The notes under the pieces: generated by a model
What the model saw: the letters and a program-made list of their open reading frames with translations, nothing else
Databases searched by the model: none
Told to the model about the DNA's origin: nothing
Shown: positions 19,099-42,032 of the stretch, in pieces
Position numbering within the stretch: position 1 is the first letter of the stretch
Layout of the letters: each line of letters begins with the position of its first letter
Made by a program: the position numbers and the translations under genes
DNA from: an uncultured Pseudacidovorax sp.
Lineage (GTDB): Bacteria; Pseudomonadota; Gammaproteobacteria; Burkholderiales; Burkholderiaceae_C
Length of the DNA: 42,032 nucleotides
NCBI RefSeq assembly: GCF_913773995.1
Contig: NZ_CAJYES010000260.1
Span: 1 to 42,032 of the forward strand
Direction: 5' to 3'

Positions 19099-19962
19099 TC
19101 ACTTCAGTCCGAGCAGCCGGACCGCGTTGTCCTTCAGGATGCCCGGCATCACCTCGGGCTTGAAGCCCGCCTCCTGGAAATCCTTCATCCACCGGTCCGG
19201 CGTGATCAGCGGGTAGTCGCTGCCGAAGAGGATGCGGTCCTTCAGCAGCGTGTTGGCGTACTGCACCAGCTGCTTCGGGAAGTACTTGGGGCTCCAGCCC
19301 GACAGGTCGATCCAGACGTTGGGCTTGTGCGTGGCCACCGACAGCGCCTCGTCCTGCCACGGAAAGCTGGGGTGGGCCATGATGATCTGCATGTCCGGGA
19401 AGTCGATGGCGACGTCGTCCAGGTGCATCGGGTTGCTGTACTCCAGCCGCAGCCCGCCGCCGCAGCGCATGCCCGAACCGATGCCGCTGTGGCCGGTGTG
19501 AAAGATGGCGGGCAGCTTGTGCTCGGCGATCACCTCGTACAGCGGCCAGGCCATGCGGTCGTACGGGTGGAAGCCCTGCACCGTGGGGTGGAACTTGAAG
19601 CCCTTGACGCCGTGCTCCTCGATCAGCCGGCGCACCTCGCGCGCGCCCATCTTTCCCTTGTGCGGATCGACGCTGCCGAAGGCGATCATGATGTCGCTGT
19701 TCTTCTGCGCCGCCTCGGCGATCTCCTCGTTCGGGATGCGGCGGCGGCCCAGGTTGGACTCGCTGTCCACGCCGAACATCACCAGGCCGATCTTGCGCTC
19801 GCGGTAGTAGTCGATGCTCTCCTGGATGGTGGGGCGCCGGCTGGAGCGGAAGTACTTGTCCGCCGCGCGGTCGTATTCCTCGCCATAGTTGTCGAAGGGG
19901 TTCCAGCAGCTGATCTCGGCGTGGGTGTGGATGTCGATGGCGCTGAGGTTCGCGATGTCCAT
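19099..19962 (-). CDS. Amidohydrolase-2 family metal-dependent hydrolase/decarboxylase-like protein
   Basis: A 287-residue TIM-barrel protein of the amidohydrolase-2 family, which includes ACMSD, gamma-resorcylate decarboxylase and related C-C bond enzymes. Metal ligands are visible: HTH (His12, His14), His155 in FHTGH, His197 in MAHPSFPW and Asp249 in FGSDYP. Substrate cannot be read from sequence. It is divergent from the enoyl-CoA hydratase across 103 nt carrying dyad operators, so it is probably controlled with the hydroxycinnamate genes. A role in aromatic side-chain cleavage or decarboxylation is inference. CGGAGA precedes the ATG at a longish spacing. Confidence 0.82.
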   Translation of the reverse strand: MDIANLSAIDIHTHAEISCWNPFDNYGEEYDRAADKYFRSSRRPTIQESIDYYRERKIGLVMFGVDSESNLGRRRIPNEEIAEAAQKNSDIMIAFGSVDPHKGKMGAREVRRLIEEHGVKGFKFHPTVQGFHPYDRMAWPLYEVIAEHKLPAIFHTGHSGIGSGMRCGGGLRLEYSNPMHLDDVAIDFPDMQIIMAHPSFPWQDEALSVATHKPNVWIDLSGWSPKYFPKQLVQYANTLLKDRILFGSDYPLITPDRWMKDFQEAGFKPEVMPGILKDNAVRLLGLK

Positions 19963-20013
19963 GAGGCGCGTCTCCGTTCGGGTAAGTACTGATGAGTTGG
20001 CCGCTCCGGGCCG

Positions 20014-20050
20014 TTGAATTGATTATTTTGGATAACCATAATCGATCCAA
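20014..20050 (+). promoter_or_regulatory. Divergent promoter region with overlapping dyad operators
   Basis: A sigma70-like promoter reads TTGAAT (20014-20019), 17-nt spacer, CATAAT (20037-20042), placing transcription near 20049 for the enoyl-CoA hydratase gene. Two overlapping inverted repeats cover it: GATTAT (20021-20026)/ATAATC (20038-20043) and TTGGAT (20028-20033)/ATCCAA (20045-20050), both with 11-nt spacers. The size and position suit a MarR-family dimer. The MarR gene at 30307 is the obvious candidate regulator, by inference. Confidence 0.6.
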
Positions 20051-20065
20051 CTTCCGAACGCAATC

Positions 20066-20836
20066 ATGACTCATCAGGACCTCAGCCTCGACATCCAGGG
20101 CGACATCGCCATCGTCCGCCTCACGCGCCCTGCCAAGCGCAACGCGCTCAACGACGGCCTCATCCTGGCGCTGCGCAACACCTTCGAGAGCCTGCCCGAC
20201 ACCGTGCGTGCGGCCGTGATCGATGGAGAAGGTCCGCACTTCTGCGCCGGCCTCGACCTGTCCGAGATCAGCGAGCGCGATGCTGGCGGCGGCCTGCGCC
20301 ATTCGCGCATGTGGCATGCCGCGCTGGAGCTGGTGCAGCACGGCCCCGTGCCCGTCGTCGCGGCGCTGCACGGCGCCGTGGTGGGTGGCGGCCTGGAACT
20401 GGCCAGCGCCTGCCACATCCGCGTGGCCGATGCCAGCACCTTCTACGCGCTGCCCGAAGGCACGCGCGGCATCTTCGTGGGCGGCGGCGGTTCGGTGCGC
20501 ATCCCGCGCCTGATCGGCGTGGCCCGCATGACCGACATGATGATGACCGGCCGCGTCTACAACGCCGAGGACGGCGAGCGCGCCGGCTTCGCGCAGTATC
20601 TGGTGCCCGAAGGTGCCGCGCTGGACAAGGCCGTCGAGCTGGCCCGCCGCATCGCCACCAACGCGCCGCTGACCAACTATGCGCTGATGCACGCCCTGCC
20701 CCGCATCGCCGAACAGAACGCCGACCACGGTTTCTTCACCGAGGCCCTGATGTCCGGCATCGTGCAGGACGCGCCCGAGGCCAAGGCCCGTGTGCGCGCC
20801 TTCCTCGAAGGCAAGGCTGCCAAGGTGACGAAATAG
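20066..20836 (+). CDS. Enoyl-CoA hydratase (crotonase family), hydroxycinnamoyl-CoA hydratase candidate
   Basis: A 256-residue crotonase. The oxyanion-hole strand HFCAGLDL (58-65) and the GGGLELA segment are present. Both catalytic Glu positions of a classical enoyl-CoA hydratase are conserved, Glu111 (GGGLE) and Glu131 (ALPEG), 20 residues apart as expected. As I recall, feruloyl-CoA hydratase-lyases have Ser at the first position, so plain hydration of the CoA thioester is favoured over aldehyde-releasing cleavage. Next to it lie a feruloyl-CoA-synthetase-like ligase and a 3-hydroxyacyl-CoA dehydrogenase-like protein, which is consistent. The ATG lacks a clear Shine-Dalgarno. Confidence 0.9.
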   Translation: MTHQDLSLDIQGDIAIVRLTRPAKRNALNDGLILALRNTFESLPDTVRAAVIDGEGPHFCAGLDLSEISERDAGGGLRHSRMWHAALELVQHGPVPVVAALHGAVVGGGLELASACHIRVADASTFYALPEGTRGIFVGGGGSVRIPRLIGVARMTDMMMTGRVYNAEDGERAGFAQYLVPEGAALDKAVELARRIATNAPLTNYALMHALPRIAEQNADHGFFTEALMSGIVQDAPEAKARVRAFLEGKAAKVTK

Positions 20837-20875
20837 GCCCACCCCCGTTTCTTGCTCACAACGCGCAAGCCGAAT

Positions 20876-20946
20876 CCCCCCTCAAGGGGGCGACACCAGT
20901 GGCCCGGCAGAGCCGGTTCCACGATGCCCCCCGCGGTCCGGCCCGC
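20876..20946. repeat. Dispersed intergenic repeat, copy 1
   Basis: This copy has a C5/G5 hairpin (20876-20880 with 20886-20890), then GGCG, CAGTGGCC and a second hairpin CCGGC-AGA-GCCGG (20904-20916). The same layout occurs at 26662-26770 and, inverted, at 30841-30959. It occupies most of the 135-nt gap between the hydratase and ligase genes. Confidence 0.65.
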
Positions 20947-20971
20947 TCAAAGGCCGAAAGGAATAGATGAA

Positions 20972-22852
20972 ATGAAGATGGAGACAGCCCAGGATCTGCG
21001 ACCCAAGTACCGCGCGCTCGAATTCGGCATTACCCGCGCCGTGCTGCGCGAGGCCGAGGGCGGCGTGCAGTACCTGCAGGCCGACAAGCCGCTGGGCCAC
21101 CATGCCCACCGCATGACCGACCGGCTGGTGTACTGGGCCGCCATGGCGCCCGACCGCACCTTCGTGGCCCGGCGCGCCCGCAATGCCGACGGCAGCACCG
21201 GCGACTGGATCCGCATCAGCTACCGCGAGGCACTGGCCAAGGCCCGCGCCATCGGCCAGGCCCTGCTCGACCGCGGCCTGAGCGAGGACCGGCCCGTCGC
21301 CATCCTGAGCGAGAACAGCATCGAGCACCTGCTGTTGGCGCTGGGCGCGCTCTATGTGGGCATTCCGCACTGCCCGGTGTCGCCACCCTACTCACTGGTC
21401 AGCAAGGACTACGACAAGCTGCGCCATGTGATCGGCACGCTCACGCCCGGGCTGGTGTTCGCCAGCGACACGCGCTATGCCTCAGCCATCGCCGCCGTGG
21501 TGCCGGCCGACACCGAGGTGGTGCTGGGCGGTGGCTCGCTGGAAGGCCGCTCGGTCACGCCGCTATCGCAGCTGCTGGCCACCGAGCCCACCTCCGCCGT
21601 CGATGCCGCCATGCACGGCACGCACCCGGGCACCATCACCAAGTTCCTGTTCACCTCGGGCTCCACCAAGAACCCCAAGGCGGTCATCAACACCCACCGC
21701 ATGTGGTGCGCCAACCAGCAGCAGCTGCGCGCCTCCATCCCCGCGCTCGGCGAAGAGCCGCCGGTGCTGATCGACTGGCTGCCCTGGAACCACACCTTCG
21801 GCGGCAACCACAACGTCGGCATCGTGCTGGACAACGGCGGCACGCTGTACATCGACGACGGCAAGCCCACGCCGGCCGGCATCGCCGAGACGCTGCGCAA
21901 CCTGCGCGAGATCGCGCCCACGGTCTACTTCAACGTACCCACCGGCTTCGAGTACATCGCCAACGCGATGGAGGAAGACCCGGTGCTGCGCAAGAAGCTG
22001 CTGTCGCGCTGCCGCATGTTCTTCTATGCCGGTGCGGCCCTGCCCCAGGCCGTGTGGGACCAGCTGCACCGCCTGCAGGAGGCCGAGATCGGCGAGCGCC
22101 TGGTGATGGGCACCGGCCTGGGCATGACCGAGTCCGGCCCCTTCGGCCTGTACATCACCCGTCCCGAGGTGCGCACCGGCGACCTGGGCCTGCCCACCGC
22201 CGGCATGGAGATCAAGCTGGTGCCCACCGACGGCAAGGTCGAGATCCGCTATCGCGGCCCCAACGTCACGCCCGGCTACTGGCGCATGCCCGAGGCCACG
22301 CACGAGGCCTTCGACGAGGAAGGCTTCTTCAAGACCGGCGACGCCGTGGCCTGGATCGACCCCGAGAACATCCACCTGGGCCTGCGCTTCGACGGCCGCA
22401 TCGCCGAGGACTTCAAGCTGGCCACCGGCACCTTCGTGAGCGTGGGCCCGCTTCGTGCCAAGGTGATCGCGTTCGGCGCGCCCTATGTGCAGGACGTGGT
22501 GCTCACCGGCATCAACCTGAAGGAGGTGGGGGCGCTGATCTTCCCGACCCAGGCAGTGCGCGAGCTGGCTCCCTCGCTGCCGGGCGATGCACCGCTGAAG
22601 TCGGTGCTGGAGCATCCGGAGGTGCAGCTGCACTTTCAGAAGGTCATCGACCGCCTGGCCGGCGATGCCACGGGCAGCGCCAACCGCATCGCCCGCGCCG
22701 CGCTGGTGGCCGAGCCGCCCTCCATCGACAAGGGCGAGATCACCGACAAGGGCTCGATCAACCAGCGCGCCGTGCTCAAGCACCGCGACGCCGCGGTGCA
22801 GGCCCTGCACGCCGACACCCTGCCTTTCACCATCAAGCCGCAGTGGCAGTAG
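20972..22852 (+). CDS. fcs: Feruloyl-CoA synthetase-like acyl-CoA ligase
   Basis: A 626-residue ANL-superfamily ligase that activates an aromatic acid through an acyl-adenylate to its CoA thioester. The P-loop motif FTSGSTKNPKAV lies near residues 226-238, followed by WLPWNHTFGGNHN, MGTGLGMTESGPF and the GFFKTGDAVAW hinge region. Length and motif spelling match the feruloyl-CoA synthetase subgroup rather than fatty-acid or 4-coumarate ligases. GAAAGGAA (20956-20963) sits 8 nt before ATG 20972. Esterases, hydratase and dehydrogenase around it support a hydroxycinnamate substrate, though the exact acid is unproven. Confidence 0.88.
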   Translation: MKMETAQDLRPKYRALEFGITRAVLREAEGGVQYLQADKPLGHHAHRMTDRLVYWAAMAPDRTFVARRARNADGSTGDWIRISYREALAKARAIGQALLDRGLSEDRPVAILSENSIEHLLLALGALYVGIPHCPVSPPYSLVSKDYDKLRHVIGTLTPGLVFASDTRYASAIAAVVPADTEVVLGGGSLEGRSVTPLSQLLATEPTSAVDAAMHGTHPGTITKFLFTSGSTKNPKAVINTHRMWCANQQQLRASIPALGEEPPVLIDWLPWNHTFGGNHNVGIVLDNGGTLYIDDGKPTPAGIAETLRNLREIAPTVYFNVPTGFEYIANAMEEDPVLRKKLLSRCRMFFYAGAALPQAVWDQLHRLQEAEIGERLVMGTGLGMTESGPFGLYITRPEVRTGDLGLPTAGMEIKLVPTDGKVEIRYRGPNVTPGYWRMPEATHEAFDEEGFFKTGDAVAWIDPENIHLGLRFDGRIAEDFKLATGTFVSVGPLRAKVIAFGAPYVQDVVLTGINLKEVGALIFPTQAVRELAPSLPGDAPLKSVLEHPEVQLHFQKVIDRLAGDATGSANRIARAALVAEPPSIDKGEITDKGSINQRAVLKHRDAAVQALHADTLPFTIKPQWQ

Positions 22853-22861
22853 CCATCCGCT

Positions 22862-22969
22862 CCCTCCCCCGCTGGGGGAGGGCTGGGGTGGGGGACTGCG
22901 GCGGTGGTTCAACTGCAACGCACCCAGCGCCCCCGGCCCCCATCCCCGCCTTCCCCCAGAGGGGGAAGG
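22862..22969. repeat. Pair of REP-like palindromes between fcs and the dehydrogenase gene
   Basis: Two perfect 9-bp hairpins with 3-nt loops: CCCTCCCCC/GGGGGAGGG (22862-22870 with 22874-22882) and CCTTCCCCC/GGGGGAAGG (22949-22957 with 22961-22969). The 66 nt between are C/G-rich and include a GGCTGGGGTGGGGG tail like REP elements of many proteobacteria. They could stabilise the upstream mRNA or bind nucleoid proteins. Confidence 0.75.
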
Positions 22970-22999
22970 AGTAAGAAGACCCGACTAGGAGATGAAGTC

Positions 23000-23764
23000 A
23001 TGAAGATCGAAGGACAAAACGCACTCGTCACCGGTGGCGCCTCCGGCCTGGGCGAAGCCACGGCCCGGGAACTCGCCCGCCTGGGCGCCAAGGTGGCGGT
23101 GCTCGACCGCAACCTCGACCAGGCGAAAAAGGTGGCGGCCGACATCGGCGGCACCGCCTTGGCCTGCGACATCACCGACACCGCCAGCGTCGAGGCCGCC
23201 CTGGCCGCGGCCGCCGAGGTCCACGGCCCGGCGCGCATCCTGATGAACGTGGCCGGCATCGGCAGCGCGAAGCGCATCGTCGGCAAGGACGGCAGCGCCG
23301 CGCCGCTGGAAGACTTCGCCCGCGTCATCCAGGTCAACCTGATCGGCACCTACAACGTGAGCCGGCTGTTCGCGGCCCGTTGCGCCAAGCTGGACGCGCT
23401 GGACGGCGGCGAACGCGGCGTGATGATGTTCACCGCCTCCGTGGCCGCCTTCGATGGCCAGGTCGGACAGCAGGCCTACAGCGCCTCAAAGGGCGGCCTG
23501 GTCGGCATGACGCTGCCGATGGCGCGCGACCTGGCGCAGCACGGCATCCGCGTGTGTACCGTGGCACCCGGCATCTTCGCGACGCCCCTGCTGCTGGAGC
23601 TGCCCGAGCCGGTGCAGCAGTCGCTGGCCGCGGCCATCCCCTTTCCACCCCGTCTGGGCAAGCCCTCGGAATTCGCCGAGCTGGCCTGCCACATCGTGAC
23701 CAACGGCCACCTCAATGGCGAGGTGATCCGGCTGGACGGCGCGCTGCGCATGGCGCCGCGCTGA
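23000..23764 (+). CDS. Short-chain dehydrogenase, 3-hydroxyacyl-CoA dehydrogenase type 2-like
   Basis: A 254-residue classical SDR with the NAD-binding motif TGGASGLG (11-18), NVAG, and the catalytic Tyr160 and Lys164 in AYSASKGG. The sequence resembles the HSD10 / type-2 3-hydroxyacyl-CoA dehydrogenase group, which oxidises beta-hydroxyacyl-CoA to beta-ketoacyl-CoA with NAD+. Placed after a hydratase and an aryl-CoA ligase, it would oxidise the aryl-hydroxypropionyl-CoA. AGGAG (22987-22991) lies 8 nt before the ATG and fixes the start. Confidence 0.9.
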   Translation: MKIEGQNALVTGGASGLGEATARELARLGAKVAVLDRNLDQAKKVAADIGGTALACDITDTASVEAALAAAAEVHGPARILMNVAGIGSAKRIVGKDGSAAPLEDFARVIQVNLIGTYNVSRLFAARCAKLDALDGGERGVMMFTASVAAFDGQVGQQAYSASKGGLVGMTLPMARDLAQHGIRVCTVAPGIFATPLLLELPEPVQQSLAAAIPFPPRLGKPSEFAELACHIVTNGHLNGEVIRLDGALRMAPR

Positions 23765-23836: not shown

Positions 23837-25639
23837 ATGAAGAAGGAAGACGGCAAGACTTTCGCGCTGCGGGCCCTGGCGGCCGCGGCGCCCCTCGCGC
23901 TGCTGGCGGCCTGCGGCGGCTCGGGCAACGACAACAACCAGAACGCCGCGCTGGCGGCGGCGCTGATCGCCGCCAACCGGCCCGCGCCGGCCCCTGCGCC
24001 CGCACCGGCACCCGCGCCCGCCCCCGCGGTCGAGACCATTCCCCAGCTGTCGGCGGCAGTCGGCGCCTCGCTGCAGTCGTGCACCGACCTGGCCACGCGC
24101 ATCAGCTTCGCCAACACCACCATCACCGCTTCGACGCTGGTCGCGGCCGGCACGCTCAAGGTGGGCGGCACCGACGTGCCCGAGCACTGCCTGGTCACCG
24201 GCAGCATGTTCCCGCGCACCAGCAGCGTCGACGGCAAGAACTATGCGATCAAATTCGAGATGCGCCTGCCGCGCGCCTGGAACGGCCGCTTCTTCTACCA
24301 GGGCAATGGCGGGCTGGACGGCAGCGTGGTCACCGCCACCGGCACGCTGGGCGGCGGACCGCTGACCGGCGCCCTGTCGACCGGTTTCGCCGTGCTGAGC
24401 TCCGACGCCGGGCATGCCGGCGCGGATGCCACCTTCGGCATCGACCCGCAGGCCCGCCTGGACTACGGCTACCAGGCCGTGGCCAAGCTCACGCCCATGG
24501 CCAAGAACGCGATCCAGACGGCCTACGGCAAGGGCCCGGATCGCTCCTACTTTGGCGGCTGTTCCAACGGCGGCCGGCATGCCATGGTCGCGGCCTCGCG
24601 CTATGCCGACCAGTACGACGGCATCATCGCCGGCGACCCCGGCACGCGCCTGCCACTGGCAGCCACCGCCAACATCGCAGGCGCCCAGACCTATGCCACG
24701 CTGGCCACCACGCCAGGGGATCTGAGTACCGCCTTCACCCAGGCCGAGCGCACGCTGGTCACCAAGGCCGTGCTCGCCCAATGCGACGGACTGGACGGCG
24801 CCGCCGACGGCATGGTGCAGGACAACGCCGCCTGCCAGGCGGCCTTCGACATCAACCGCGACGTACCCACCTGCGCCACCACGCGCAACGGTACCTGCCT
24901 CTCGGCCGACCAGAAGACGAAGATCGACAAGCTGTTCAAGGGCGCCACCACCAACAGCGGGACACGCATCTACAGCAGCTTCCCCTACGACGCCGGCCTG
25001 GACACGGGCGGCTGGTCGTTCTGGAAGTTCACCGTGCCGCTGATCCTCGACTCGGGGTCGGTCGGCCTGGTGTTCCAGTCGCCGCCGGAGGACCCGAGCT
25101 TCAACGGCCCCAACTTCGCGCTCAACACCAACCTCGACACCATCCTGGCCAAGGTGACCGGCACCTCGGGCGTCTACACCGAGAACAGCATTTCCTTCAT
25201 GACGCCGCCCAACTACGGCAAGCTGCCGGCGCTCAAGAAGCGCGGCGCCAAGCTGATGGTCTACCACGGCACGGCCGACCCGATCTTCTCCAGCGACGAC
25301 TCGGTCAACTGGTACCAGCAACTGCAGCAGGACAACGGCGGCGATGCGTCCAACTTCGCGCGGCTGTACCTGATCCCGGGCATGAACCACTGCTCCGGCG
25401 GCCCGGCCACCGACCAGTTCGACATGCTCAGCGCCATGGTCAACTGGGTCGAGAAGGGCCAGGCACCCGACCGCGTGGTGGCCAGCGCCCGCGGCACCGG
25501 CAATGCCGGTGGCGCCAACACCGATCTGCCGCCGACCTGGTCCGCCACCCGCACCCGGCCGCTGTGCCCCTATCCGAAGGTCGCCCGCTACAACGGCACG
25601 GGCAGCTTGGAGGATGCGGCCAACTTCAGCTGCCGCTGA
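23837..25639 (+). CDS. Tannase/feruloyl esterase family lipoprotein, MHETase-like (paralogue 1)
   Basis: A 600-residue alpha/beta-hydrolase of the tannase family. The lipobox LLAAC gives a lipidated Cys26, followed by a Pro-Ala linker (about residues 49-64) that holds the enzyme off the membrane. The CS-D-HC motif of the family is complete: Cys242-Ser243 in GGCSNGG, Asp481 in HGTAD, His518-Cys519 in PGMNHCSGG. The C-terminus TRPLCPYPKVARY matches what I remember of Ideonella MHETase closely. It probably hydrolyses an aromatic-acid ester outside the inner membrane, with feruloyl, galloyl or similar as candidates. GGAG precedes the ATG. Confidence 0.9.
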   Translation: MKKEDGKTFALRALAAAAPLALLAACGGSGNDNNQNAALAAALIAANRPAPAPAPAPAPAPAPAVETIPQLSAAVGASLQSCTDLATRISFANTTITASTLVAAGTLKVGGTDVPEHCLVTGSMFPRTSSVDGKNYAIKFEMRLPRAWNGRFFYQGNGGLDGSVVTATGTLGGGPLTGALSTGFAVLSSDAGHAGADATFGIDPQARLDYGYQAVAKLTPMAKNAIQTAYGKGPDRSYFGGCSNGGRHAMVAASRYADQYDGIIAGDPGTRLPLAATANIAGAQTYATLATTPGDLSTAFTQAERTLVTKAVLAQCDGLDGAADGMVQDNAACQAAFDINRDVPTCATTRNGTCLSADQKTKIDKLFKGATTNSGTRIYSSFPYDAGLDTGGWSFWKFTVPLILDSGSVGLVFQSPPEDPSFNGPNFALNTNLDTILAKVTGTSGVYTENSISFMTPPNYGKLPALKKRGAKLMVYHGTADPIFSSDDSVNWYQQLQQDNGGDASNFARLYLIPGMNHCSGGPATDQFDMLSAMVNWVEKGQAPDRVVASARGTGNAGGANTDLPPTWSATRTRPLCPYPKVARYNGTGSLEDAANFSCR

Positions 25640-25673: not shown

Positions 25674-26660
25674 ATGCAACACCGTCGTCAATTCCTCCAC
25701 ACGCTGGGCGGCGCGGCCGCCCTGGGCGCCCTGTCGCCCCTGTCGGCCTTCGCCCAGGCCATCGAACAGGTCAAGATCATGTACGGCTTTCCAGCCGGCA
25801 GCGCGGGCGACACCGTCGCCCGCCGCGTGGCCGAGAAGATCGCCGGCACCCCTTATGCCAAGGGCGCCTATGTCGAGAACAAGCCGGGCGCCGGCGGCCG
25901 CATCGCGGTCGAGACGCTGAAGAACTCCACGCCGGACGGATCCGTGCTCACGCTGGCGCCGGTGTCGGCCCTGTCGGTGTACCCGTACATCTATCCCAAG
26001 CTGACCTACAAGCCGGAGGACGTTACGCCCGTCTCCATCGGCGCCATCATGTTCCACGGCCTGGCCGTGGGCCCCGCGGTGCCGGCCGAGGTGAAGACGC
26101 TGAAGGACTTCCTGGCCTGGGCCAAGGCCAACCCCAGCCAGGCCAGCTACGGCTCGCCGGGTGCCGGCTCGATGCCGCACCTGCTGGGCGCGCTGCTGGG
26201 CATGCGCTCGGGCGTGGAGCTCAAGCATGTGCCCTACCGCGGCACCGTGCCCAGCATCACCGACCTGGTGGGCGGCCAGATTGCCGCCGCCATGAACCCC
26301 AGCGGCGACTACCTGCAGTACATGAAGAACGGCCGCGTGCGCGTGCTGGCCACCTCGGGCAAGAAGCGCTCGCCCTACCTGCCCGATGTGCCCACCTTCA
26401 CCGAATTGGGCTACCCGGACGTGACCTCGGAAGAGTGGTTCGGCTTCTACGCGCCGGCCAAGACGCCGGCCGCCACGCTGGCCTCGGCCAATGCGGCGAT
26501 CAATGCGGCGCTGAAGGACAAGTCGGTGATCGACTCGCTGGCATTGGTGGGCCTGGTGGCCCACGGCACCACGGCGCAGGACATGGCTGCGGACCAGAAG
26601 GCCGAATACGAACGCTGGGGCCCCCTGGTCAAGCAGATCGGCTTCACGGCGGAATCTTGA
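25674..26660 (+). CDS. Bug family (tripartite tricarboxylate transporter type) solute-binding protein
   Basis: A 328-residue Bug/TctC periplasmic receptor. The N-terminus has a twin-arginine-like signal (HRRQFLHTLGGAAALGALSPLSAFAQ), so Tat export is likely. The mature part shows family motifs YGFPAGSAGDTVARRVAEK, VENKPGAGGRIA, YGSPGAGSMPHLLG and HVPYRGTVPSITDLVGGQI. Bug proteins bind carboxylates and aromatic acids. No TctA/TctB permease is in the window, so it either serves a distant permease or works as a sensor, both common for orphan Bugs in Burkholderiales. Its position between two esterases suggests it binds their product. Confidence 0.92.
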   Translation: MQHRRQFLHTLGGAAALGALSPLSAFAQAIEQVKIMYGFPAGSAGDTVARRVAEKIAGTPYAKGAYVENKPGAGGRIAVETLKNSTPDGSVLTLAPVSALSVYPYIYPKLTYKPEDVTPVSIGAIMFHGLAVGPAVPAEVKTLKDFLAWAKANPSQASYGSPGAGSMPHLLGALLGMRSGVELKHVPYRGTVPSITDLVGGQIAAAMNPSGDYLQYMKNGRVRVLATSGKKRSPYLPDVPTFTELGYPDVTSEEWFGFYAPAKTPAATLASANAAINAALKDKSVIDSLALVGLVAHGTTAQDMAADQKAEYERWGPLVKQIGFTAES

Positions 26661-26867: not shown

Positions 26868-28562
26868 ATGAACACCTTCCGCCTTGCCGCCATCGGCGGC
26901 GCCATCGCCCTGCTCAGTGCCTGCGGTTCGCGGCCGCCCGAGGCGGCCACGGCCATGAAGGCGGCGCGCCCCGGCGAACTGCACACCTGCGAAAGGCTGG
27001 AAGCCGCGCCGGGCGTGGTGTTCACCACTGTGCGCAGCGTGCCGGCCGGGCCGGTGGCCATCCGCGGCGGCAGCGAACAGGCGCCGGCGCATTGCCTGGT
27101 GCAGGGCCGCATGGCCGAGCGCACCAGCACGGTGGACGGCCAGCGCTACGCCATCGGCTTCGAGCTGCGGCTGCCTCAGGCCTGGAACGGCCGCTTCCTG
27201 TTCCAGGCCAACGGCGGCCTGGACGGCGTGGTGGTGCCGGCGCTGGGCGGCATCGGTGGCGGCGGGCCGCGCACCAATGCGCTGTCGATGGGCTTCGCCG
27301 TGGTCAGCAGCGACGCCGGCCATCCGGCGCCCAATCCGCGCTTCGGCCTCGATCCGCAAGCACGGCGCGACTACGGCTACAGCGCCGTGGCCCAGCTCAC
27401 GCCCGTGGCCAAGCAACTGGTGGCCCAGGCCTATGGCCGCCCGGCCGACCGCTCCTACATCGCGGGCTGCTCCAACGGCGGGCGCCATGCCATGGTGGCG
27501 GCCTCGCGCCTGCCGCAGGCCTTCGACGGCGTACTGGCGGGCGACCCGGGCTTCCACCTGCCGCGCGCGGCCGTGGCCCAGCTCTACGGCGCGCAGCAGT
27601 ACGCGGCGCTGGCGACGGCCAAGACGCCGCAGGGCGATCCCGACCTGCAGACCGCGTTCACACCCGGTCAGCTCCAGACCCTCTCGCGCGCCGTGCTGGC
27701 GCGCTGCGACATGCTCGACGGCCTGACCGACGGCATCGTCGGCGACCTCAAGTCCTGCCAGGCCCGCTTCAACCTGGGCCGCGACGTGCCCACCTGCACC
27801 GCCGGCCGGCAGGACAGCTGCCTGGACCCGGCCCAGAAGATGGCCCTGGCCCGCGTCTTCGCCGGCGCGCGCGACAGCAGCGGCAGGCAGCTCTACAACA
27901 GCTTCCCCTTCGACCCCGGGGTCTCGGGCGCCAACTGGCGCGAATGGAAGCTGGCCAGCCCCGCCACCCGCGACGCCGGTGCCGTGGCCTTCATCTTCAG
28001 CACGCCGCCGATGGCCGACCGGCCGCAGGGCTTGGCCTTCGCGCTCGGCTTCGACATGGACCGTGACGCCCCGCGCATCGACGCCACGCAGGCCCCGTAC
28101 GACGAATCGGCCATGGCCTTCATGGTGCCGCCCAATTCAGAACGCCTGCAGTCGCTGCGGGCCCGCGGCGGTCGGATGATCGTCTACCACGGCACCGGCG
28201 ATCCGGTGTTCTCGTCCGACGACACGGCCGCCTGGTACGACCGCCTGCAGACCACGCACGCCGGCCGGGCCGGCGAGTTCGTGCGCTACTTCCCGGTGCC
28301 GGGAATGAACCACTGCAGCGGCGGCCCTTCGACCGACCATTTCGACATGCTCACGGCGCTGGTCGACTGGGTCGAAGGCGGCCATGCGCCCGAGCAGGTA
28401 CAGGCCGAGGCACGCGGCCCGGGCTCGCGCCAACCCAACCCGGAGGTTCCGGCCAACTGGGCGCCAGACCGCACCCGGCCGCTGTGCCCCTATCCCGCCG
28501 TCGCCCGCTTCCGTGGCGGCGACACCGAACGCGCGACCAGCTTCGCCTGCGTCGCGCCCTGA
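26868..28562 (+). CDS. Tannase/feruloyl esterase family lipoprotein, MHETase-like (paralogue 2)
   Basis: A 564-residue paralogue of the esterase at 23837. The lipobox LLSAC gives Cys19, but there is no long Pro-Ala linker. The catalytic set is complete: Cys201-Ser202 (GCSNGG), Asp445 (HGTGD), His482-Cys483 (GMNHCSGG). Both paralogues share FGLDPQAR, GNGG/ANGG-type strands and the TRPLCPYP ending. Divergence in the lid region (about residues 230-420) suggests a different ester specificity. It ends 17 nt before the acyl-CoA dehydrogenase gene, so the two are probably cotranscribed. Confidence 0.9.
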   Translation: MNTFRLAAIGGAIALLSACGSRPPEAATAMKAARPGELHTCERLEAAPGVVFTTVRSVPAGPVAIRGGSEQAPAHCLVQGRMAERTSTVDGQRYAIGFELRLPQAWNGRFLFQANGGLDGVVVPALGGIGGGGPRTNALSMGFAVVSSDAGHPAPNPRFGLDPQARRDYGYSAVAQLTPVAKQLVAQAYGRPADRSYIAGCSNGGRHAMVAASRLPQAFDGVLAGDPGFHLPRAAVAQLYGAQQYAALATAKTPQGDPDLQTAFTPGQLQTLSRAVLARCDMLDGLTDGIVGDLKSCQARFNLGRDVPTCTAGRQDSCLDPAQKMALARVFAGARDSSGRQLYNSFPFDPGVSGANWREWKLASPATRDAGAVAFIFSTPPMADRPQGLAFALGFDMDRDAPRIDATQAPYDESAMAFMVPPNSERLQSLRARGGRMIVYHGTGDPVFSSDDTAAWYDRLQTTHAGRAGEFVRYFPVPGMNHCSGGPSTDHFDMLTALVDWVEGGHAPEQVQAEARGPGSRQPNPEVPANWAPDRTRPLCPYPAVARFRGGDTERATSFACVAP

Positions 28563-28579: not shown

Positions 28580-30277
28580 ATGGATTACGCCCCCCGCCCT
28601 GAAGACGTCCGCTTCCTCCTCGACGCCGTCCTCGGTGCCTCGCAGCAGCTCGCACGACTGGCGCCGTTCGCCGAGGTCGATGCCGACCTGCAGGCCCAAG
28701 TGCTGGAACAGGCCGCCACCTTCGTCGGCGAGGTGATCGCCCCGCTGCAGCGTGACGGCGACGAGATCGGCTGCCGCCTCGAAGGTGGCCAGGTCCACAC
28801 GCCGCCCGGCTTCGCCGCCGCCTACCAGGCTTTCGTGGAGGGCGGCTGGCCCAGCCTTTCCGCCGCGTCCGAAGACGGCGGCCAGGGCCTGCCTGCCGTG
28901 CTGGAGGCCGTGCTCTACGAATGGCTGGCCGGCGCCAACCACGGCTTCACCATGGCGCCCGGCCTGCTGCATGGCGCCTACGAATGCATCCGCCACCATG
29001 CCAGCGACGACCTCAAGGCGCGCTACCTGGGCAAGGTCGCCACCGGCGAATGGCTGGCCACCATGTGCCTGACCGAGGCCCATGCGGGCAGCGATCTGGG
29101 CCTGGTGCGCACCCGCGCCGTGCCGCAGGCTGACGGCAGCGTGCGTGTCTCGGGCACCAAGATCTTCATCTCGGGCGGCGAGCACGACCTCACGCCCAAC
29201 ATCGTCCACCTGGTGCTGTGCCGCCTTCCCGATGCGCCCGCCGGCCCGAAGGGCCTGTCGCTGGCGCTGGTGCCCAAGGTCCTGGACGACGGCGCGCGCA
29301 ACGCGGTGCAGTGCGAGCGCATCGAGGAAAAGATGGGCCTGCACGGCAGCCCCACCTGCGTGATGCGCTTCGACGACGCCACCGGGTGGCTGGTCGGCGA
29401 GCCGGGCCGCGGCCTGGCTGCGATGTTCGTCATGATGAATGCGGCCCGTCTGCATGTGGCGCTGCAGGGCATCGGCCTGCTCGACGCCGCGTGGCAGAAG
29501 GCCCATGCGTATGCGCAGGAGCGCCGCCAGATGGTGGCGCCGGGCGCCGACCGCGCCTCCGGCCCCAGCCTGATCGCCGAGCATCCGGCAGTCGCCCGCG
29601 TGCTGGACGTGCAGCGGGCCTGGATCGACGGCGGCCGGCTCATCGCCTATCGCACTGCGCTCCAGCTCGATATCGCGCGCCATGCCGAGGACGCCAAGGC
29701 ACGCGAGGCCGCGCAGCAGTGGTGCAGCTACATCACGCCGGTGCTCAAGGCCGCCTGCACGCAGCAGGGCTTCGACGGCGCCAGCGCCTGCCTGCAGGTG
29801 TTCGGGGGCCACGGCTATGTGCGCGAATGGGGCATCGAGCAGATCCTGCGCGACGCCCGCGTGACCATGATCTATGAGGGCACCAATGAGATCCAGGCCA
29901 TCGACCTGCTGGTGCGCAAGGTGCTGCCCGATGCCGGCGCCGGCTTCGCGGCCACGCTGCTGGCGCTGCGCGACGAGCTGGACGCCTCGCGTGATGTCGA
30001 TGCCGATGCGCAACGTCGCCTGGCGCAGTTGCGCTACCTGACCACGCAGATCGCCATGGCCGCGCATGCCCAGCCACGCCTGCCCTACGAGCTGGCCGAC
30101 GACTACCTGCGGCTGGTGATGGTCACGCTGCTGGCCTGGGCCTGGGCCCGCATCGAACAGGCACCGGGCGCTGGCGAGGCGCAGGCGCGCGCGGCAGCCG
30201 CCTTCCGCCGCTGGGTGCTGCCGGAGTTCGACATGCGCGCGGCGATCGTCAAGAAGGCCTGCGAGCCGCAGGGGTGA
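28580..30277 (+). CDS. Acyl-CoA dehydrogenase with C-terminal extension
   Basis: A 565-residue flavoprotein of the long acyl-CoA dehydrogenase subgroup (DmdC-like size). The FAD/substrate motifs MCLTEAHAGSDLG and ISGGEHDL, and the catalytic base Glu433 in IYEGTNEIQ, are intact. An extra helical C-terminal domain of about 110 residues follows. In phenylpropenoid clusters such an enzyme converts saturated hydrocinnamoyl-CoA to cinnamoyl-CoA, as proposed for HcaD in Acinetobacter, so it would let the pathway accept dihydro acids. That assignment is inferred from neighbours. No strong Shine-Dalgarno is seen. Confidence 0.9.
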   Translation: MDYAPRPEDVRFLLDAVLGASQQLARLAPFAEVDADLQAQVLEQAATFVGEVIAPLQRDGDEIGCRLEGGQVHTPPGFAAAYQAFVEGGWPSLSAASEDGGQGLPAVLEAVLYEWLAGANHGFTMAPGLLHGAYECIRHHASDDLKARYLGKVATGEWLATMCLTEAHAGSDLGLVRTRAVPQADGSVRVSGTKIFISGGEHDLTPNIVHLVLCRLPDAPAGPKGLSLALVPKVLDDGARNAVQCERIEEKMGLHGSPTCVMRFDDATGWLVGEPGRGLAAMFVMMNAARLHVALQGIGLLDAAWQKAHAYAQERRQMVAPGADRASGPSLIAEHPAVARVLDVQRAWIDGGRLIAYRTALQLDIARHAEDAKAREAAQQWCSYITPVLKAACTQQGFDGASACLQVFGGHGYVREWGIEQILRDARVTMIYEGTNEIQAIDLLVRKVLPDAGAGFAATLLALRDELDASRDVDADAQRRLAQLRYLTTQIAMAAHAQPRLPYELADDYLRLVMVTLLAWAWARIEQAPGAGEAQARAAAAFRRWVLPEFDMRAAIVKKACEPQG

Positions 30278-30306: not shown

Positions 30307-30789
30307 ATGACGCCTGCCAAGCCCCGAACACGCAAGCCCGTTCAGCCCCCGACCACGGCGCCTGAGCCGCTGGACAGCCATGTGCTCGAGAGCCTGGTGG
30401 GCTACAACGCGCGCCGCGCCTACCTGGTCGTGTATGTCGCCTTCGCCGAGCGGATGGCCGTCTATGGCCTCAAGCCGACGGATTTCTCGGTGCTCTCGCT
30501 GCTGGCGCACAACCCGGGGGCCACCTCGCGCCAGCTCTGCGCGGCGCTGGACATCCAGCCGCCCAACTTCGTGAGCCTGGTGGCGGCCATGGACCGCCGC
30601 GGCCTGATCGAGCGCCGACCCCATCCGCACGATGGCCGCGCGGTGGGACTGCACCTCACGCCGGCCGGCCACCAGCTCATGGTCGAGGCGGAAGAGGCCG
30701 TGATCCAATTGGAGAAGGAGGCCAGCCACAAGCTCACCGACCGCGAGCGCGAGACCTTGATCCGGCTCTTGCAGAAGATTTACCTGTAG
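30307..30789 (+). CDS. MarR family transcriptional regulator, HcaR/CouR-like candidate
   Basis: A 160-residue winged-helix regulator. The recognition region runs TSRQLCAALDIQPPNFVSLVAAMDRRGLIERRPHPHDGRAVGLHLT, including the beta-wing with its conserved DxR (DGRA). MarR repressors of hydroxycinnamate genes typically respond to the CoA thioester. It lies 29 nt after the acyl-CoA dehydrogenase gene and probably controls the dyads at 20021-20050. The N-terminal 20 residues are Pro/Thr-rich and less certain, and an internal start is possible. Confidence 0.87.
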   Translation: MTPAKPRTRKPVQPPTTAPEPLDSHVLESLVGYNARRAYLVVYVAFAERMAVYGLKPTDFSVLSLLAHNPGATSRQLCAALDIQPPNFVSLVAAMDRRGLIERRPHPHDGRAVGLHLTPAGHQLMVEAEEAVIQLEKEASHKLTDRERETLIRLLQKIYL

Positions 30790-37554: not shown

Positions 37555-38760
<1,206 letters not shown>

Positions 38761-38801
38761 GCGAAAGGTCTCCTTGAGAATCGGATGAAAAGAGGGGGTG
38801 T

Positions 38802-39461
38802 TCAGTCGGCGGCCGCGTCGTCGGCGATGGGCAGGCCCACCAGGCGCTCGAGCTCCTGCAGCGACAGGCCCGGCACGCGGTCGATGCAGCGCAGGCCCTG
38901 CGGCGTGCAGGCCAGTGTCGCCAGGTCGGTGTAGATGCGCTTGACGCACGCGAGACCGGTAAGCGGATAACTGCACTGCGCCACCACCTTGCTCACGCCC
39001 TGCTTGGTCAGCAGGTCCATCATGACCCAGGTCTGCTTGGCGCCGGTGGCCAGATCCATGGCGCCGCCGACGGCCGGGATGGCGCCGGGCTCGCCGGTGC
39101 TCCAGTTGGCCAGGTCGCCCGTGGCGCTGACCTGGAAGGCGCCCAGCACGCAGATGTCGATGTGGCCGCCGCGCATCATGGCGAAGCTGTCGGCATGGTG
39201 GAAAAACGCGCCGCCCGGCAGCAGCGTCACCGGCTGCTTGCCGGCGTTGATGAGGTCGTAGTCCTCCTCGCCCGCGGCCGGCGCCGGGCCCATGCCCAGG
39301 ATGCCGTTCTCGCTGTGCAGCACCACCTCACGGCCCGCGGGCAGGTGGTTGGCCACCAGCGTAGGCTGGCCGATGCCGAGGTTGACGACGGCACCGTCGA
39401 AGATGTCCTGCGCCACGCGGGCGGCCAGCTGGTCCTTGGTTCGGCGTTGGTAGTCGGCCAT
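38802..39461 (-). CDS. pcaJ: 3-oxoadipate CoA-transferase subunit B
   Basis: A 219-residue beta subunit of the succinyl-CoA:3-oxoadipate CoA-transferase. The catalytic Glu is Glu51 in the SENG motif (LHSENGILG). GGHIDICVLGAFQVSATGDLANW and the C-terminal CVKRIYTDLA segment match the family. The start is ATG 39461, which shares one base with the pcaI stop. A GTG three bases earlier is an alternative. Tight overlap ensures equal subunit synthesis. Confidence 0.94.
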   Translation of the reverse strand: MADYQRRTKDQLAARVAQDIFDGAVVNLGIGQPTLVANHLPAGREVVLHSENGILGMGPAPAAGEEDYDLINAGKQPVTLLPGGAFFHHADSFAMMRGGHIDICVLGAFQVSATGDLANWSTGEPGAIPAVGGAMDLATGAKQTWVMMDLLTKQGVSKVVAQCSYPLTGLACVKRIYTDLATLACTPQGLRCIDRVPGLSLQELERLVGLPIADDAAAD

Positions 39462-40168
39462 CACGCCACCTCCTTCTTCTTGAAGCCGCCGGCCTGGGTG
39501 GCCGTGCGATCGATCTTCACGACGCGGCTGACGAAGATGCCGGGCGTGACGATGGCCTCGGGGTCGAGCGTGCCCAGCTCGACCACCTCGTGCACCGTGG
39601 CGACGGTCTTCTTCGCGGCCATGGCCATCACCGGACCGAAGTTGCGCGCGGCCTTGCGGTAGCTGAGGTTGCCCCAGCGGTCGCCGCGCTCGGCCTTGAT
39701 GAGGGCCAGGTCGCCGTGGATCGGGTACTCCAGCACGTAGTGGCGGCCGTCGATGACGCGGGTCTCGCGGCCGGCGGCCAGTTCGGTGCCGTAGCCGGTC
39801 GGGCAGAAGAAGGCACCGATGCCGGCACCGGCGGCGCGGATGCGCTCGGCCAGATTGCCCTGGGGCACCAACTCCAGCTCGATCTTGCCGGCGCGGTAGA
39901 GGCCATCGAAGACGAAGCTGTCGGCCTGCCGCGGGAAGCTGCAGATGATCTTGCGCACCCGTCCGGCCTTGAGCAGCGCGGCCAAGCCGGCCTCGCCGTT
40001 GCCGGCGTTGTTGTTGACCACCGTGAGCTCGCGCGCACCTTGCGCGATCAGGCCGTCGATCAGCGCGTCCGGGATGCCGGCGGTGCCGAAGCCACCGATC
40101 AGCACCGTGGCGCCATCGGCTGTGCCCTGGAGCGCCTCCTCCACCGAGGCGGCGAGTTTGTCGATCAT
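39461..40168 (-). CDS. pcaI: 3-oxoadipate CoA-transferase subunit A
   Basis: A 235-residue alpha subunit with the CoA-binding GGFGTAGIP motif near residue 25, NNAGNGEAGLAALL, and the FCPTGYGTELAAG stretch. With PcaJ it transfers CoA from succinyl-CoA to 3-oxoadipate, giving the substrate of PcaF. AAGGAA precedes the ATG at 40168. The open frame continues far upstream but overlaps the operator and regulator, so it is not used. It is the first gene of the pcaIJF transcript, divergent from the IclR regulator. Confidence 0.94.
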   Translation of the reverse strand: MIDKLAASVEEALQGTADGATVLIGGFGTAGIPDALIDGLIAQGARELTVVNNNAGNGEAGLAALLKAGRVRKIICSFPRQADSFVFDGLYRAGKIELELVPQGNLAERIRAAGAGIGAFFCPTGYGTELAAGRETRVIDGRHYVLEYPIHGDLALIKAERGDRWGNLSYRKAARNFGPVMAMAAKKTVATVHEVVELGTLDPEAIVTPGIFVSRVVKIDRTATQAGGFKKKEVA

Positions 40169-40251
40169 GCGGGGTTCCTTCTTCAGGGACGTCGGCCCTT
40201 GCAGGCGCAGACGCGGGTCATGGAAAGTCGACGGAGAGCTTCGCGAAAAAA

Positions 40252-40290
40252 TGTTCGCTATAAGAACATTTGTTCTTAGAATGAATTCTA
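40252..40290. promoter_or_regulatory. IclR-type (PcaR/PcaU-like) operator with three TGTTC half-sites
   Basis: TAAGAACA (40261-40268), a 2-nt spacer and TGTTCTTA (40271-40278) form a perfect 8-bp-arm palindrome. An additional TGTTC half-site lies just before it (40252-40256), and a second dyad TAGAAT/ATTCTA (40277-40282 with 40285-40290) overlaps its right edge. As I recall, PcaU-type IclR regulators use a palindrome plus one extra direct repeat, which fits. The region separates divergent pcaI and the regulator gene. Confidence 0.75.
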
Positions 40291-40306
40291 GCCCGCCTGC
40301 ACGAAC

Positions 40307-41101
40307 ATGCCATCCTCCTTTCCTTCTGCCGACCTTCCCGAAGCGCCACGACCCGGCGACGGCTTCGTGCAGTCCTTCGCCCGCGGCCTTCAGGTCATCC
40401 GCTCCTTCAGCGCCAGCGCGCCCCGGCAGACGCTGAGCGAAGTGGCCGCCGCCAGCGGCCTCACCCGCGCCGGGGCCCGACGCATCCTGCTCACGCTGCA
40501 GACGCTGGGCTACGTGGAAAGCGACGGCCGCCTTTTCTTCCTCACCGCGCGCATCCTGGACCTGGGCTTCGCCTACCTGTCCTCCATGCCGATCTGGAAC
40601 CGGGCCGAGCCGGTGATGGAGTCGCTGGTGGCCCAGGTCAAGGAGTCGTGCTCGGCCGCCGTGCTTGAGGGCACCGACGTGGTCTACGTGATGCGCGTGC
40701 CCACGCACAAGATCATGCGCATCAACGTGGGCATCGGCTCGCGCCTGCCGGCCTACTGCACCTCCATGGGCCGCGTGCTGCTGGCCGCCCTGCCCGAGGA
40801 CGAACTGCAGCGCCGCCTGGCCGCCTCGCCCATTGCTGCGCTCACGCGCCACACGCTGACCGATCCCGAGGCCATCGGCGCCCGGATCGCCCAGGCGCGG
40901 CGACAGGGCTGGTGCCTGGTCAACCAGGAACTGGAGGAAGGGCTGATCTCCATCGCCGCGCCGGTGCGCGACCGCGCCGGCCGGGTGCTGGCCGCGCTCA
41001 ACATCAGCGGCCAGGCCAACCGGACCAGCGCCAAGGTGATGCAGGACAGCCTGCTGCCACCCTTGCTGGACGCCGCGGCGCGGGTGTCCAGCCTGCTGTA
41101 G
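40307..41101 (+). CDS. IclR family regulator of the beta-ketoadipate pathway (PcaR/PobR type)
   Basis: A 264-residue IclR regulator. The N-terminal winged helix reads FARGLQVIRSFSASAPRQTLSEVAAASGLTRAGARRILLTLQTLGYV. The effector domain follows, with VPTHKIMRINVGIGSRLPAYCTSMGRVLLA and ELEEGLISIAAPVRDRAGRVLAALNIS, the spelling seen in PcaR, PcaU, PobR and CatR-type members. Divergence from pcaIJF and the triple half-site operator support local control, probably induced by beta-ketoadipate or protocatechuate. The ATG at 40307 is 17 nt past the operator, so autoregulation is likely. Confidence 0.92.
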   Translation: MPSSFPSADLPEAPRPGDGFVQSFARGLQVIRSFSASAPRQTLSEVAAASGLTRAGARRILLTLQTLGYVESDGRLFFLTARILDLGFAYLSSMPIWNRAEPVMESLVAQVKESCSAAVLEGTDVVYVMRVPTHKIMRINVGIGSRLPAYCTSMGRVLLAALPEDELQRRLAASPIAALTRHTLTDPEAIGARIAQARRQGWCLVNQELEEGLISIAAPVRDRAGRVLAALNISGQANRTSAKVMQDSLLPPLLDAAARVSSLL

Positions 41102-41255
41102 AAGCCTGGGTGCGCGCCCGTTGTCTTGATCTAGCACAATACAAGAGGGGATGGCGCTGTCCAGAATCGCGCGCCATGCTCGCTCCCTCTCCGCTTCCAC
41201 GACCCTCCTGGCGACAGCGTTCGCCCACGCCCTCCAGGGCTTAAAGGTGGCTTCC

Positions 41256-42032
41256 ATGAGCGCAGCGCCGTCCGCCCCGCCCTCCGACTGGGGCAGCCTC
41301 CAACCACGGCACGCGATGGCCACGCCGGCGCTTCCCGAGCCGCAGCCTGCGCAGCTCCCCCGCGCCTGGTATCTGCGGGTGGGCGCCGTGGTGGCGTTGC
41401 TGCTCGCCGGCCTCACCCTCACCTACCTGCGGGCCGATCCGGCGCCGGCCAGCGCGCACATGGCCTTCCTGTGCCAGCTGCTGAGCGTGCGCGAGACCGA
41501 TGCCGGCTTCGACACGCTGCTGCTCTCGCTGCAGGCCGGGCGCACCGCCGATGACCGGCCGCTGTCGCAGTTCGCCACCCGGGCCACCGGGCAGATCGAG
41601 CAGCTGGAAGCCCTGTCCGCCGTGGTGCCGGCCGGCGACCGCCCAGGTCTGAAGCAGGCGCTCGAGGCCTTGCGCAAGGCCGTGGACGCCAAGGCCGCGG
41701 GCCTGCCGGACTTCCGGCGCAACCACCTCGGCCTGATGCAGGCGCAGGCCGGCCTGCCCACCGCCGCGCAGGAGCTGCTGCAAGCGACCGAGAACACACC
41801 ACTGCAAGGCGCCGCCCAGCGCTATGTGCTGGGCTTCCTGCCCGGCAGCAACGACACCGATGGAGCGCAGGAGGCGGCCCAGGCCCTGCGCGCGGCCGCC
41901 GAGGCCGCCCCTGCGCTGGCGCTTCCCGTGCAGCGCCTGCTCGCCCAGGGCGATGCCATCCATCAGCTGCGCGCCGCCCGCGATGGCGCGGTCGATGCGG
42001 TGAGGCGCCTGGACACCACGGCCCGCATCCAG
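41256..42032 (+). CDS. One-TM sensory-type protein, 5' part (runs off the window)
   Basis: The frame opens at ATG 41256 after AAAGGTGG (41243-41250) and stays open to the window end (259 codons). A Pro/Ala-rich cytosolic N-terminus of about 38 residues is followed by a transmembrane helix (about 42-60, VGAVVALLLAGLTLTYL). After it comes a long Ala/Leu-rich helical region starting LCQLLSVRETDAGFDTLLLSLQAG. The layout resembles the all-helical periplasmic sensor of a membrane kinase, diguanylate cyclase or chemoreceptor. A DAHL-type sensor is one possibility, but the output domain is outside the window. The antisense frame is a shadow. Confidence 0.65.
   Translation, partial: MSAAPSAPPSDWGSLQPRHAMATPALPEPQPAQLPRAWYLRVGAVVALLLAGLTLTYLRADPAPASAHMAFLCQLLSVRETDAGFDTLLLSLQAGRTADDRPLSQFATRATGQIEQLEALSAVVPAGDRPGLKQALEALRKAVDAKAAGLPDFRRNHLGLMQAQAGLPTAAQELLQATENTPLQGAAQRYVLGFLPGSNDTDGAQEAAQALRAAAEAAPALALPVQRLLAQGDAIHQLRAARDGAVDAVRRLDTTARIQ

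Follow-up and report, generated by a model that had tools for sequence, protein, structure and literature searches.

In the Cou pathway of Rhodococcus jostii RHA1, a MarR-regulated gene cluster serves ligation of the substrate to coenzyme A (CoA) and beta-oxidation of the side chain, and CouO, a member of the amidohydrolase superfamily, catalyzes the last side-chain step and yields the free aromatic acid. We found a similar arrangement in DNA of an uncultured Pseudacidovorax sp. (contig NZ_CAJYES010000260.1): in the window, by which we mean the whole stretch of 42,032 nucleotides that was analyzed, an operon that begins with a crotonase (ECH), a feruloyl-CoA-synthetase-type ligase (FCS), and a short-chain dehydrogenase/reductase (SDR) faces a divergent amidohydrolase gene (AMH). 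The crotonase-ligase pair and a CouR-like regulator also liken the locus to the couAB/CouR genes of Rhodopseudomonas palustris, the organism from which 3hin and 6c28, the best Protein Data Bank (PDB) matches of the window's crotonase and regulator, presumably come. The couAB route, unlike the one proposed here, is described as deacetylation to an aldehyde followed by an aldehyde dehydrogenase (PMC12366328). The SpG8-1b cluster of Agrobacterium fabrum (Atu1415-1417, Atu1421, HcaR) shares with the window a feruloyl-CoA synthase, an enoyl-CoA hydratase, a dehydrogenase, a last-step gene, and a MarR repressor; compared by description, it differs in that Atu1421, cotranscribed with the MarR gene hcaR, is named a beta-keto-thiolase and that esterases are unmentioned in the available text (PMC7797058).

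Similar enzymes or gene sets have been described in other systems. HpeF shares 95% identity with CouO, and its proposed reaction is the release of acetyl-CoA from hydroxyphenyl-beta-ketopropionyl-CoA (PMC9618137); the Hpe pathway, which degrades acetovanillone, thus resembles the window in proposing a CouO-like hydrolase for an aryl-beta-ketopropionyl-CoA but forms the beta-keto acid by carboxylation of an acetophenone rather than by hydration and oxidation. PhdC of Corynebacterium glutamicum has been called a 3-oxoacyl-CoA ketohydrolase (PMC5479773), and purified PipU, PipV, PipW, and PipX, all four of which were required, converted piperic acid to piperonylic acid and acetyl-CoA (PMC12753220); by elimination, we infer that PipW is the cleavage enzyme. 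In a protein table from a ferulate experiment with Streptomyces scabies, the amidohydrolase SCAB_15611 has a locus tag next to those of a MaoC dehydratase, a CoA synthase, and a dehydrogenase (PMC6904314). The actinobacterial clusters seen in that source and in a Rhodococcus opacus locus list a MaoC-type hydratase, whereas the window has a crotonase; the window also adds esterases, a Bug receptor, and an acyl-CoA dehydrogenase to what is described for the Cou pathway, with CouO itself compared by description. An earlier note on this DNA had suggested that side-chain cleavage would be a new role for the amidohydrolase family, which we reject because the role of CouO is in print and those of HpeF, PhdC, and PipU to PipX are similar; the note had also taken the Agrobacterium route to end in a beta-keto acid cleavage enzyme (BKACE; DUF849), whereas the available part of PMC7797058 names a thiolase and does not describe BKACE. 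The window's cluster is a betaproteobacterial example of a known route.

We are confident that this operon functions in the uptake and beta-oxidation-like degradation of hydroxycinnamates, with AMH working like CouO as the final C-C hydrolase. The basis is gene content, conservation, co-occurrence, replacement of AMH by a thiolase in some genomes, and the lack of a lyase over the family cutoff, and from these each reaction, the substrates, the metal, and the ligand of the repressor are inferred. The same lines of evidence, together with the CouO precedent, support the suggestion in the earlier note that the route is beta-oxidative and CoA dependent and that the amidohydrolase cleaves the side chain. 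In the mechanism, which appears well supported by the comparisons, enzymes of the MHETase/feruloyl-esterase type would release hydroxycinnamate from plant esters, FCS would convert it to the CoA ester, the crotonase would hydrate hydroxycinnamoyl-CoA to the beta-hydroxy-CoA compound, and the SDR would oxidize that to aryl-beta-ketopropionyl-CoA. AMH most likely hydrolyzes this last compound to an aromatic acid and acetyl-CoA: a metal-bound hydroxide would attack the aryl ketone carbon, the C-C bond would break with expulsion of the acetyl-CoA enolate, and the free acid would be left, a hydrolytic retro-Claisen reaction. LigY, a C-C hydrolase of the amidohydrolase superfamily, is a precedent for hydrolysis of a C-C bond beside a ketone. 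The acyl-CoA dehydrogenase would feed in dihydro-hydroxycinnamates, and the aromatic acids would then be channeled by pobA or vanA-type enzymes into the beta-ketoadipate pathway.

The four genes on which the earlier note was built proved to be intact open reading frames at or near the positions given there. AMH (19099..19962, minus strand) is an Amidohydro_2 protein (PF04909; 5e-51) of the CouO type, our candidate aryl-beta-ketopropionyl-CoA hydrolase. ECH (20066..20836, plus strand; Pfam ECH_1, 6e-42; NF006013 above cutoff), the proposed hydroxycinnamoyl-CoA hydratase, has both catalytic Glu residues, Glu111 and Glu131, which are Glu in 89/89 homologs (at least 45% identity, 70% coverage) and in 3hin. 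For FCS (20972..22852, plus strand), the ATG at 20972 is the better start; among NCBIfam models it scores best with PRK12582, a subfamily of acyl-CoA synthetases (NF009232; 2e-208), at 693.6 bits against a cutoff of 777, and its homologs in three annotated loci carry the name feruloyl-CoA synthase. The SDR (23000..23764, plus strand; Pfam adh_short) has 3-hydroxyacyl-CoA dehydrogenases as its nearest structures (PDB 4xgn, 2e-77; 1e3s and others). Pfam scans of the operon genes showed no lyase-specific protein, aldehyde dehydrogenase, or thiolase. The ligase, the crotonase with its two Glu residues, the dehydrogenase, the amidohydrolase with intact metal ligands, and the makeup of the cluster were thus all read correctly in the earlier note; its end at 23764 was too short, as the operon continues to about 30789.

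The features of AMH fit a CouO/PhdC-type hydrolase in Pfam assignment, residue conservation, and fold. His12, His14, His155, His197, and Asp249, whose metal and catalytic roles we assume from the family, and His125 are invariant in 121/121 loci compared, at least two of which are the same record. The structural model is a TIM barrel with a mean predicted local distance difference test (pLDDT) score of 80, falling below 50 in residues 17-40, 67-72, and 160-170. In a Foldseek search, the top matches were TIM barrels of the amidohydrolase superfamily, led by the uncharacterized 3irs (template modeling score, 0.73); dihydroxybenzoate and carboxyvanillate decarboxylases were among those that followed, and LigY stood at ranks 43 and 45. 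AMH matched PF04909 only and not the BKACE family PF05853; it has no NCBIfam model, its own genome holds no paralog at E 0.001 (AMH was the single match), and viral contigs gave no match to its patterns. The best named match, from Pseudacidovorax sp. RU35E, is 100% identical.

Linkage of AMH to a hydroxycinnamate ligase, hydratase, and dehydrogenase holds at this locus and recurs in others. In a tblastn search of plasmids with AMH, 252 records matched, and in 66 of them a match spanned 80% or more of the query. Five of these loci were opened; in 4/5 the homolog is named only "amidohydrolase family protein." In Rhizobium sp. Q54, it is 60% identical, is annotated 4-hydroxyphenyl-beta-ketoacyl-CoA hydrolase, and adjoins genes for MarR, an enoyl-CoA hydratase, a feruloyl-CoA synthase, a dehydrogenase, and an acyl-CoA dehydrogenase; the gene beside MarR is there an amidohydrolase, whereas Atu1421 beside hcaR is called a thiolase. 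The Terrarubrum plasmid locus holds an amidohydrolase, a crotonase, and a feruloyl-CoA synthase; the Phaeobacter locus an SDR, a crotonase, MarR, a feruloyl-CoA synthase, and an amidohydrolase; and the Rhodococcus opacus locus an amidohydrolase, an AMP ligase, an SDR, and MaoC. On a plasmid of Pseudomonas putida YC-AE1, a 74%-identical AMH is the last gene of an hpe-like cluster (acetoacetate-CoA ligase, Tm-1-like, biotin/lipoyl, biotin carboxylase, biotin carrier, and HAD genes), and in one further genome (locus L180 of genome G141; L and G numbers are our handles for loci and genomes), AMH directly follows an acetyl/acetoacetyl-CoA-synthetase-like gene. AMH is thus common to hydroxycinnamate and hpe-type clusters, and two pathways meeting at aryl-beta-ketopropionyl-CoA seem to share it. 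Identity to homologs in hpe-type, Rhizobium, Rhodococcus, and Phaeobacter clusters is 57 to 75%; likeness to CouO was gauged by proxies, namely, the Rhodococcus opacus protein (57%) and the Rhizobium cluster member (60%).

Neighborhoods and genome counts point in the same direction. A scan of genome contigs gave at least 503 relatives of AMH, and in the best 80, mostly from Comamonadaceae and other Burkholderiales with some Bacteroidota, there was a crotonase match in 68, a ligase match in 70, and an SDR match in 50 (48 at 45% identity or more); contig ends shorten some loci. In a sample of 398 Pseudomonadota genomes (AMH at E 1e-60, ECH at E 1e-70, both scans taken as the same genomes), AMH occurred in 37, ECH in 44, and both in 30, the window's genome among them, against 4.1 expected if independent; counted by genus (213 genera), the figures were 24, 28, and 19. 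The neighborhood search for co-occurrence that the earlier note had proposed was thus positive on the whole.

Where AMH is missing, a thiolase may stand in its place. Within one genus (g138), locus L183 reads SDR-AMH-FCS-ECH, and L224, from another genome, reads SDR-thiolase-FCS-ECH, with no AMH at 1e-60 and an aldehyde-dehydrogenase match of 27% 4 kb further on. G034, a genome of the window's own family without AMH, has at L227 a thiolase beside ECH in AMH's divergent place. Fourteen genomes of the phylum sample have ECH and no AMH; among the 13 fetched, a thiolase lies in the stretch in 5 (G034, G063, G071, G118, and G414) and a BKACE gene in one (G225; L226). Thiolase matches were found in 13 of the best 80 loci. 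A strict exchange of AMH and thiolase is rejected, since ten loci carry both. We advance tentatively, as a possibility and not as our expectation, the idea that hydroxycinnamate pathways of the crotonase type have a swappable slot for the final cleavage, which AMH, thiolase, or both may occupy, and that the CouA-type crotonase is usually accompanied by AMH, even with the two genes far apart. The exchange of terminal enzymes may be new, as may the unlinked AMH of the family described below.

Several observations weigh against the assignment of AMH as final hydrolase. The genomes in our counts are related, so that genome-level P values overstate the case, and 18/36 AMH regions of the phylum sample (up to 20 kb, outside the window) lack an ECH of at least 45% identity; with half of the AMH genes apart from a crotonase, the AMH family may also serve other pathways. 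Ten of the 18 belong to one family (f66), and all ten genomes carry ECH elsewhere, for which reason this family was tested apart. Among its 119 genomes, a 3hin-type crotonase (E 1e-110) occurred in 25, AMH in 34, and both in 24, against 7.1 expected, a result in favor of the assignment; by genus, both genes were present in 8/9 (P about 0.001). In all 24 genomes the two genes are unlinked, being either on separate contigs or separated by about 99 kb or more. The sole f66 genome with the crotonase and without AMH, G488, has a thiolase adjoining FCS. An SDR match was found in all six f66 loci of a first set (L229-L234) and was absent in 9/14 further f66 crotonase loci, which also speaks against the assignment; in three f66 genomes with a protein 92 to 98% identical in the 3hin comparison, the crotonase-ligase pair has no adjoining SDR, and AMH is elsewhere in all three. 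We read the co-occurrence as support for a possible AMH route in f66 too. As a side observation, the f66 AMH genes at L158 and L165-L173 stand apart from hydroxycinnamate clusters, and crotonase-ligase-SDR clusters lie elsewhere in the six fetched genomes.

The alternative that survives best, in our judgment an unlikely one, is hydratase-lyase activity of the crotonase, as in R. palustris CouA: the enzyme would yield an aromatic aldehyde and acetyl-CoA, an unlinked aldehyde dehydrogenase would complete the route, and AMH would do another job. The window's ECH is about 60% identical to 3hin, its best solved relative, taken above to be an R. palustris protein. In that organism, p-hydroxybenzaldehyde and vanillin are described as the products left when RPA1786 removes acetyl-CoA, and knockdown of RPA1786 affected growth little (PMC12366328). 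The absence of a nearby SDR in the nine f66 loci would suit a lyase, and an aldehyde dehydrogenase is encoded in a second cluster of the window's genome, described below. NF006588, which we take to be the model of the p-hydroxycinnamoyl-CoA hydratase/lyase family (PRK09120), gives ECH only 79.4 bits against a cutoff of 276, on which ground we rejected a classical hydratase/lyase; none of the 56 crotonase matches in the genome exceeded that cutoff (best, 135.8 bits), and 1 of 14 control genomes has a match over it. The classical hydratase-lyase lacks one of the two catalytic Glu residues, both of which are kept here. A lyase would also leave the co-operonic SDR and the neighboring AMH without work, and 24/25 f66 genomes with the 3hin-type crotonase carry AMH as well.

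Also weighing against AMH as the only terminal enzyme, a thiolase stands directly beside FCS together with AMH in 10 of the best 80 loci (L040, L063, L065, L068, L069, L070, L072, L075, L076, and L100), so that AMH is not always alone in that role. From such loci, and from G034, G071, and G488, which lack AMH but have a thiolase in the cluster, one could argue that a thiolase encoded elsewhere, pcaF-like at 37.5-39 kb or other, cleaves the beta-ketoacyl-CoA with CoA, AMH being an accessory such as a thioesterase or an acetophenone/lignin-fragment enzyme. We consider this very unlikely: the window's operon has no such thiolase, the operon thiolases compared (L040, L188, and L223) are only 38 to 40% identical to the window's pcaF-like one, a thiolase in AMH's own slot suggests equal rather than accessory roles, and CouO is a precedent for AMH. 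Neither a thiolase nor BKACE lies in the stretch in 7 of the 13 AMH-less crotonase genomes fetched, two of these having an aldehyde dehydrogenase 6 to 8 kb off (L238 and L239), which adds to the points against. That a BKACE enzyme performs the last step in this organism is the least probable reading and hardly credible: three BKACE genes exceed the cutoff in the genome, one of them, to the detriment of our reading, on contig C226 at a distance of about 2.3 kb from another FCS, which shares 45% identity with that of the window, and BKACE occurs at one of the 13 fetched AMH-less loci, but Pfam scans rejected its presence in the window's operon, and the nearest NCBIfam models of the C226 copy, all under cutoff, are cleavage enzymes for other beta-keto acids. 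The earlier note had named a DUF849 gene co-regulated elsewhere in the genome as a refutation of its proposal; the presence of such genes was borne out, and this is the half of the matter that stands.

The second cluster (C226 of the window's genome, G000, about 41-56 kb; L125) holds genes for an aldehyde dehydrogenase, an AMP ligase, an alpha/beta hydrolase, a branched-chain-type ATP-binding cassette transporter, BKACE, and FCS. It may encode another route for aromatic compounds, by which the effect of an AMH deletion could be hidden. For the lower pathway, the genome has two pobA genes over cutoff and six matches to VanA_C-domain oxygenases over a low cutoff, so that free aromatic acids can probably be used. 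In the window, a thiolase (37555-38976) adjoins CoA-transferase genes outside the operon; the thiolase and two CoA-transferase genes (37555-41422, minus strand) form a group for the lower pathway that we assume to be pcaIJF-like.

The operon's regulator, encoded by its last gene (30307..30789, plus strand; Pfam MarR_2), has CouR (6c28) as its best PDB match at 4.8e-17, the next best reaching 1.3e-9; it is therefore CouR-like both in being nearest to CouR and in lying beside hydroxycinnamate genes. MarR matches occur in 25/85 related loci. AMH and ECH are divergent, with starts at most 700 bases apart, in 54/71 loci holding both, 3 of them plasmid loci. With the window added and one 46-base region dropped, the motif GTTAT-N2-8-ATAA[CT] was present in 41/54 AMH/crotonase intergenic regions, whereas dinucleotide-shuffled sets averaged 0.1, a difference to which shared ancestry contributes. 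The window's copy, GTTAT-N5-ATAAT on the minus strand at 20022..20036, lies in the divergent promoter as a conserved inverted repeat and is a probable MarR operator; the CouR-like repressor would be released from it by hydroxycinnamoyl-CoA.

The comparative evidence allows a testable function to be given to such amidohydrolases in Comamonadaceae, Rhizobium, Phaeobacter, and some Bacteroidota. It also predicts which organisms convert ferulate and p-coumarate to free aromatic acids and not to aldehydes or aroyl-CoA, a matter of relevance to lignin conversion, and it makes the accepted aldehyde route of R. palustris-like bacteria open to direct testing. If the broader idea of a swappable slot is true, f66 bacteria with a 3hin-type crotonase, among them probably Rhodopseudomonas and Bradyrhizobium, would have a hydrolytic, beta-oxidative route that accompanies or replaces the aldehyde route in print.

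The remaining genes of this Pseudacidovorax-type operon, in which AMH is divergent from ECH-FCS-SDR-EST1-BUG-EST2-ACAD-MarR, run in the same direction from the SDR to 30789. EST1 (23837..25639, plus strand; Pfam Tannase, 2e-135) and EST2 (26868..28562, plus strand; Pfam Tannase, 1e-125) are MHETase-like members of the tannase/feruloyl-esterase family whose best solved relatives are MHETases (8ekg; 9e-106 and 2.5e-111); for EST1, feruloyl esterase B is far behind (1.8e-37). Their place in a hydroxycinnamate operon is a hint at the role of MHETase ancestors, and among the literature matches listed no title was on that subject. Between them lies the gene for a TctC-type periplasmic receptor, BUG (25674..26660, plus strand; Pfam TctC, 2e-55), and after them the acyl-CoA dehydrogenase gene, ACAD (28580..30277, plus strand; Pfam acyl-CoA dehydrogenase domains), perhaps for dihydro-hydroxycinnamoyl-CoA; ACAD matches occur in 14/85 related loci, several at the operon end. 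Several long open reading frames opposite the real genes were scanned, and no family was assigned to them. Four loci (L184, L186, L187, and L189) have AMH in the vicinity of an aldehyde dehydrogenase and an SDR unlike the window's; neither a ligase nor a crotonase was matched in these stretches, and AMH perhaps has another substrate there. In Bacteroidota (Spirosoma, Runella, Emticicia, and others; L096-L099, L101-L105, and L107), AMH is 70 to 74% identical, with crotonase and ligase matches in 8/10 loci, which suggests transfer between phyla.

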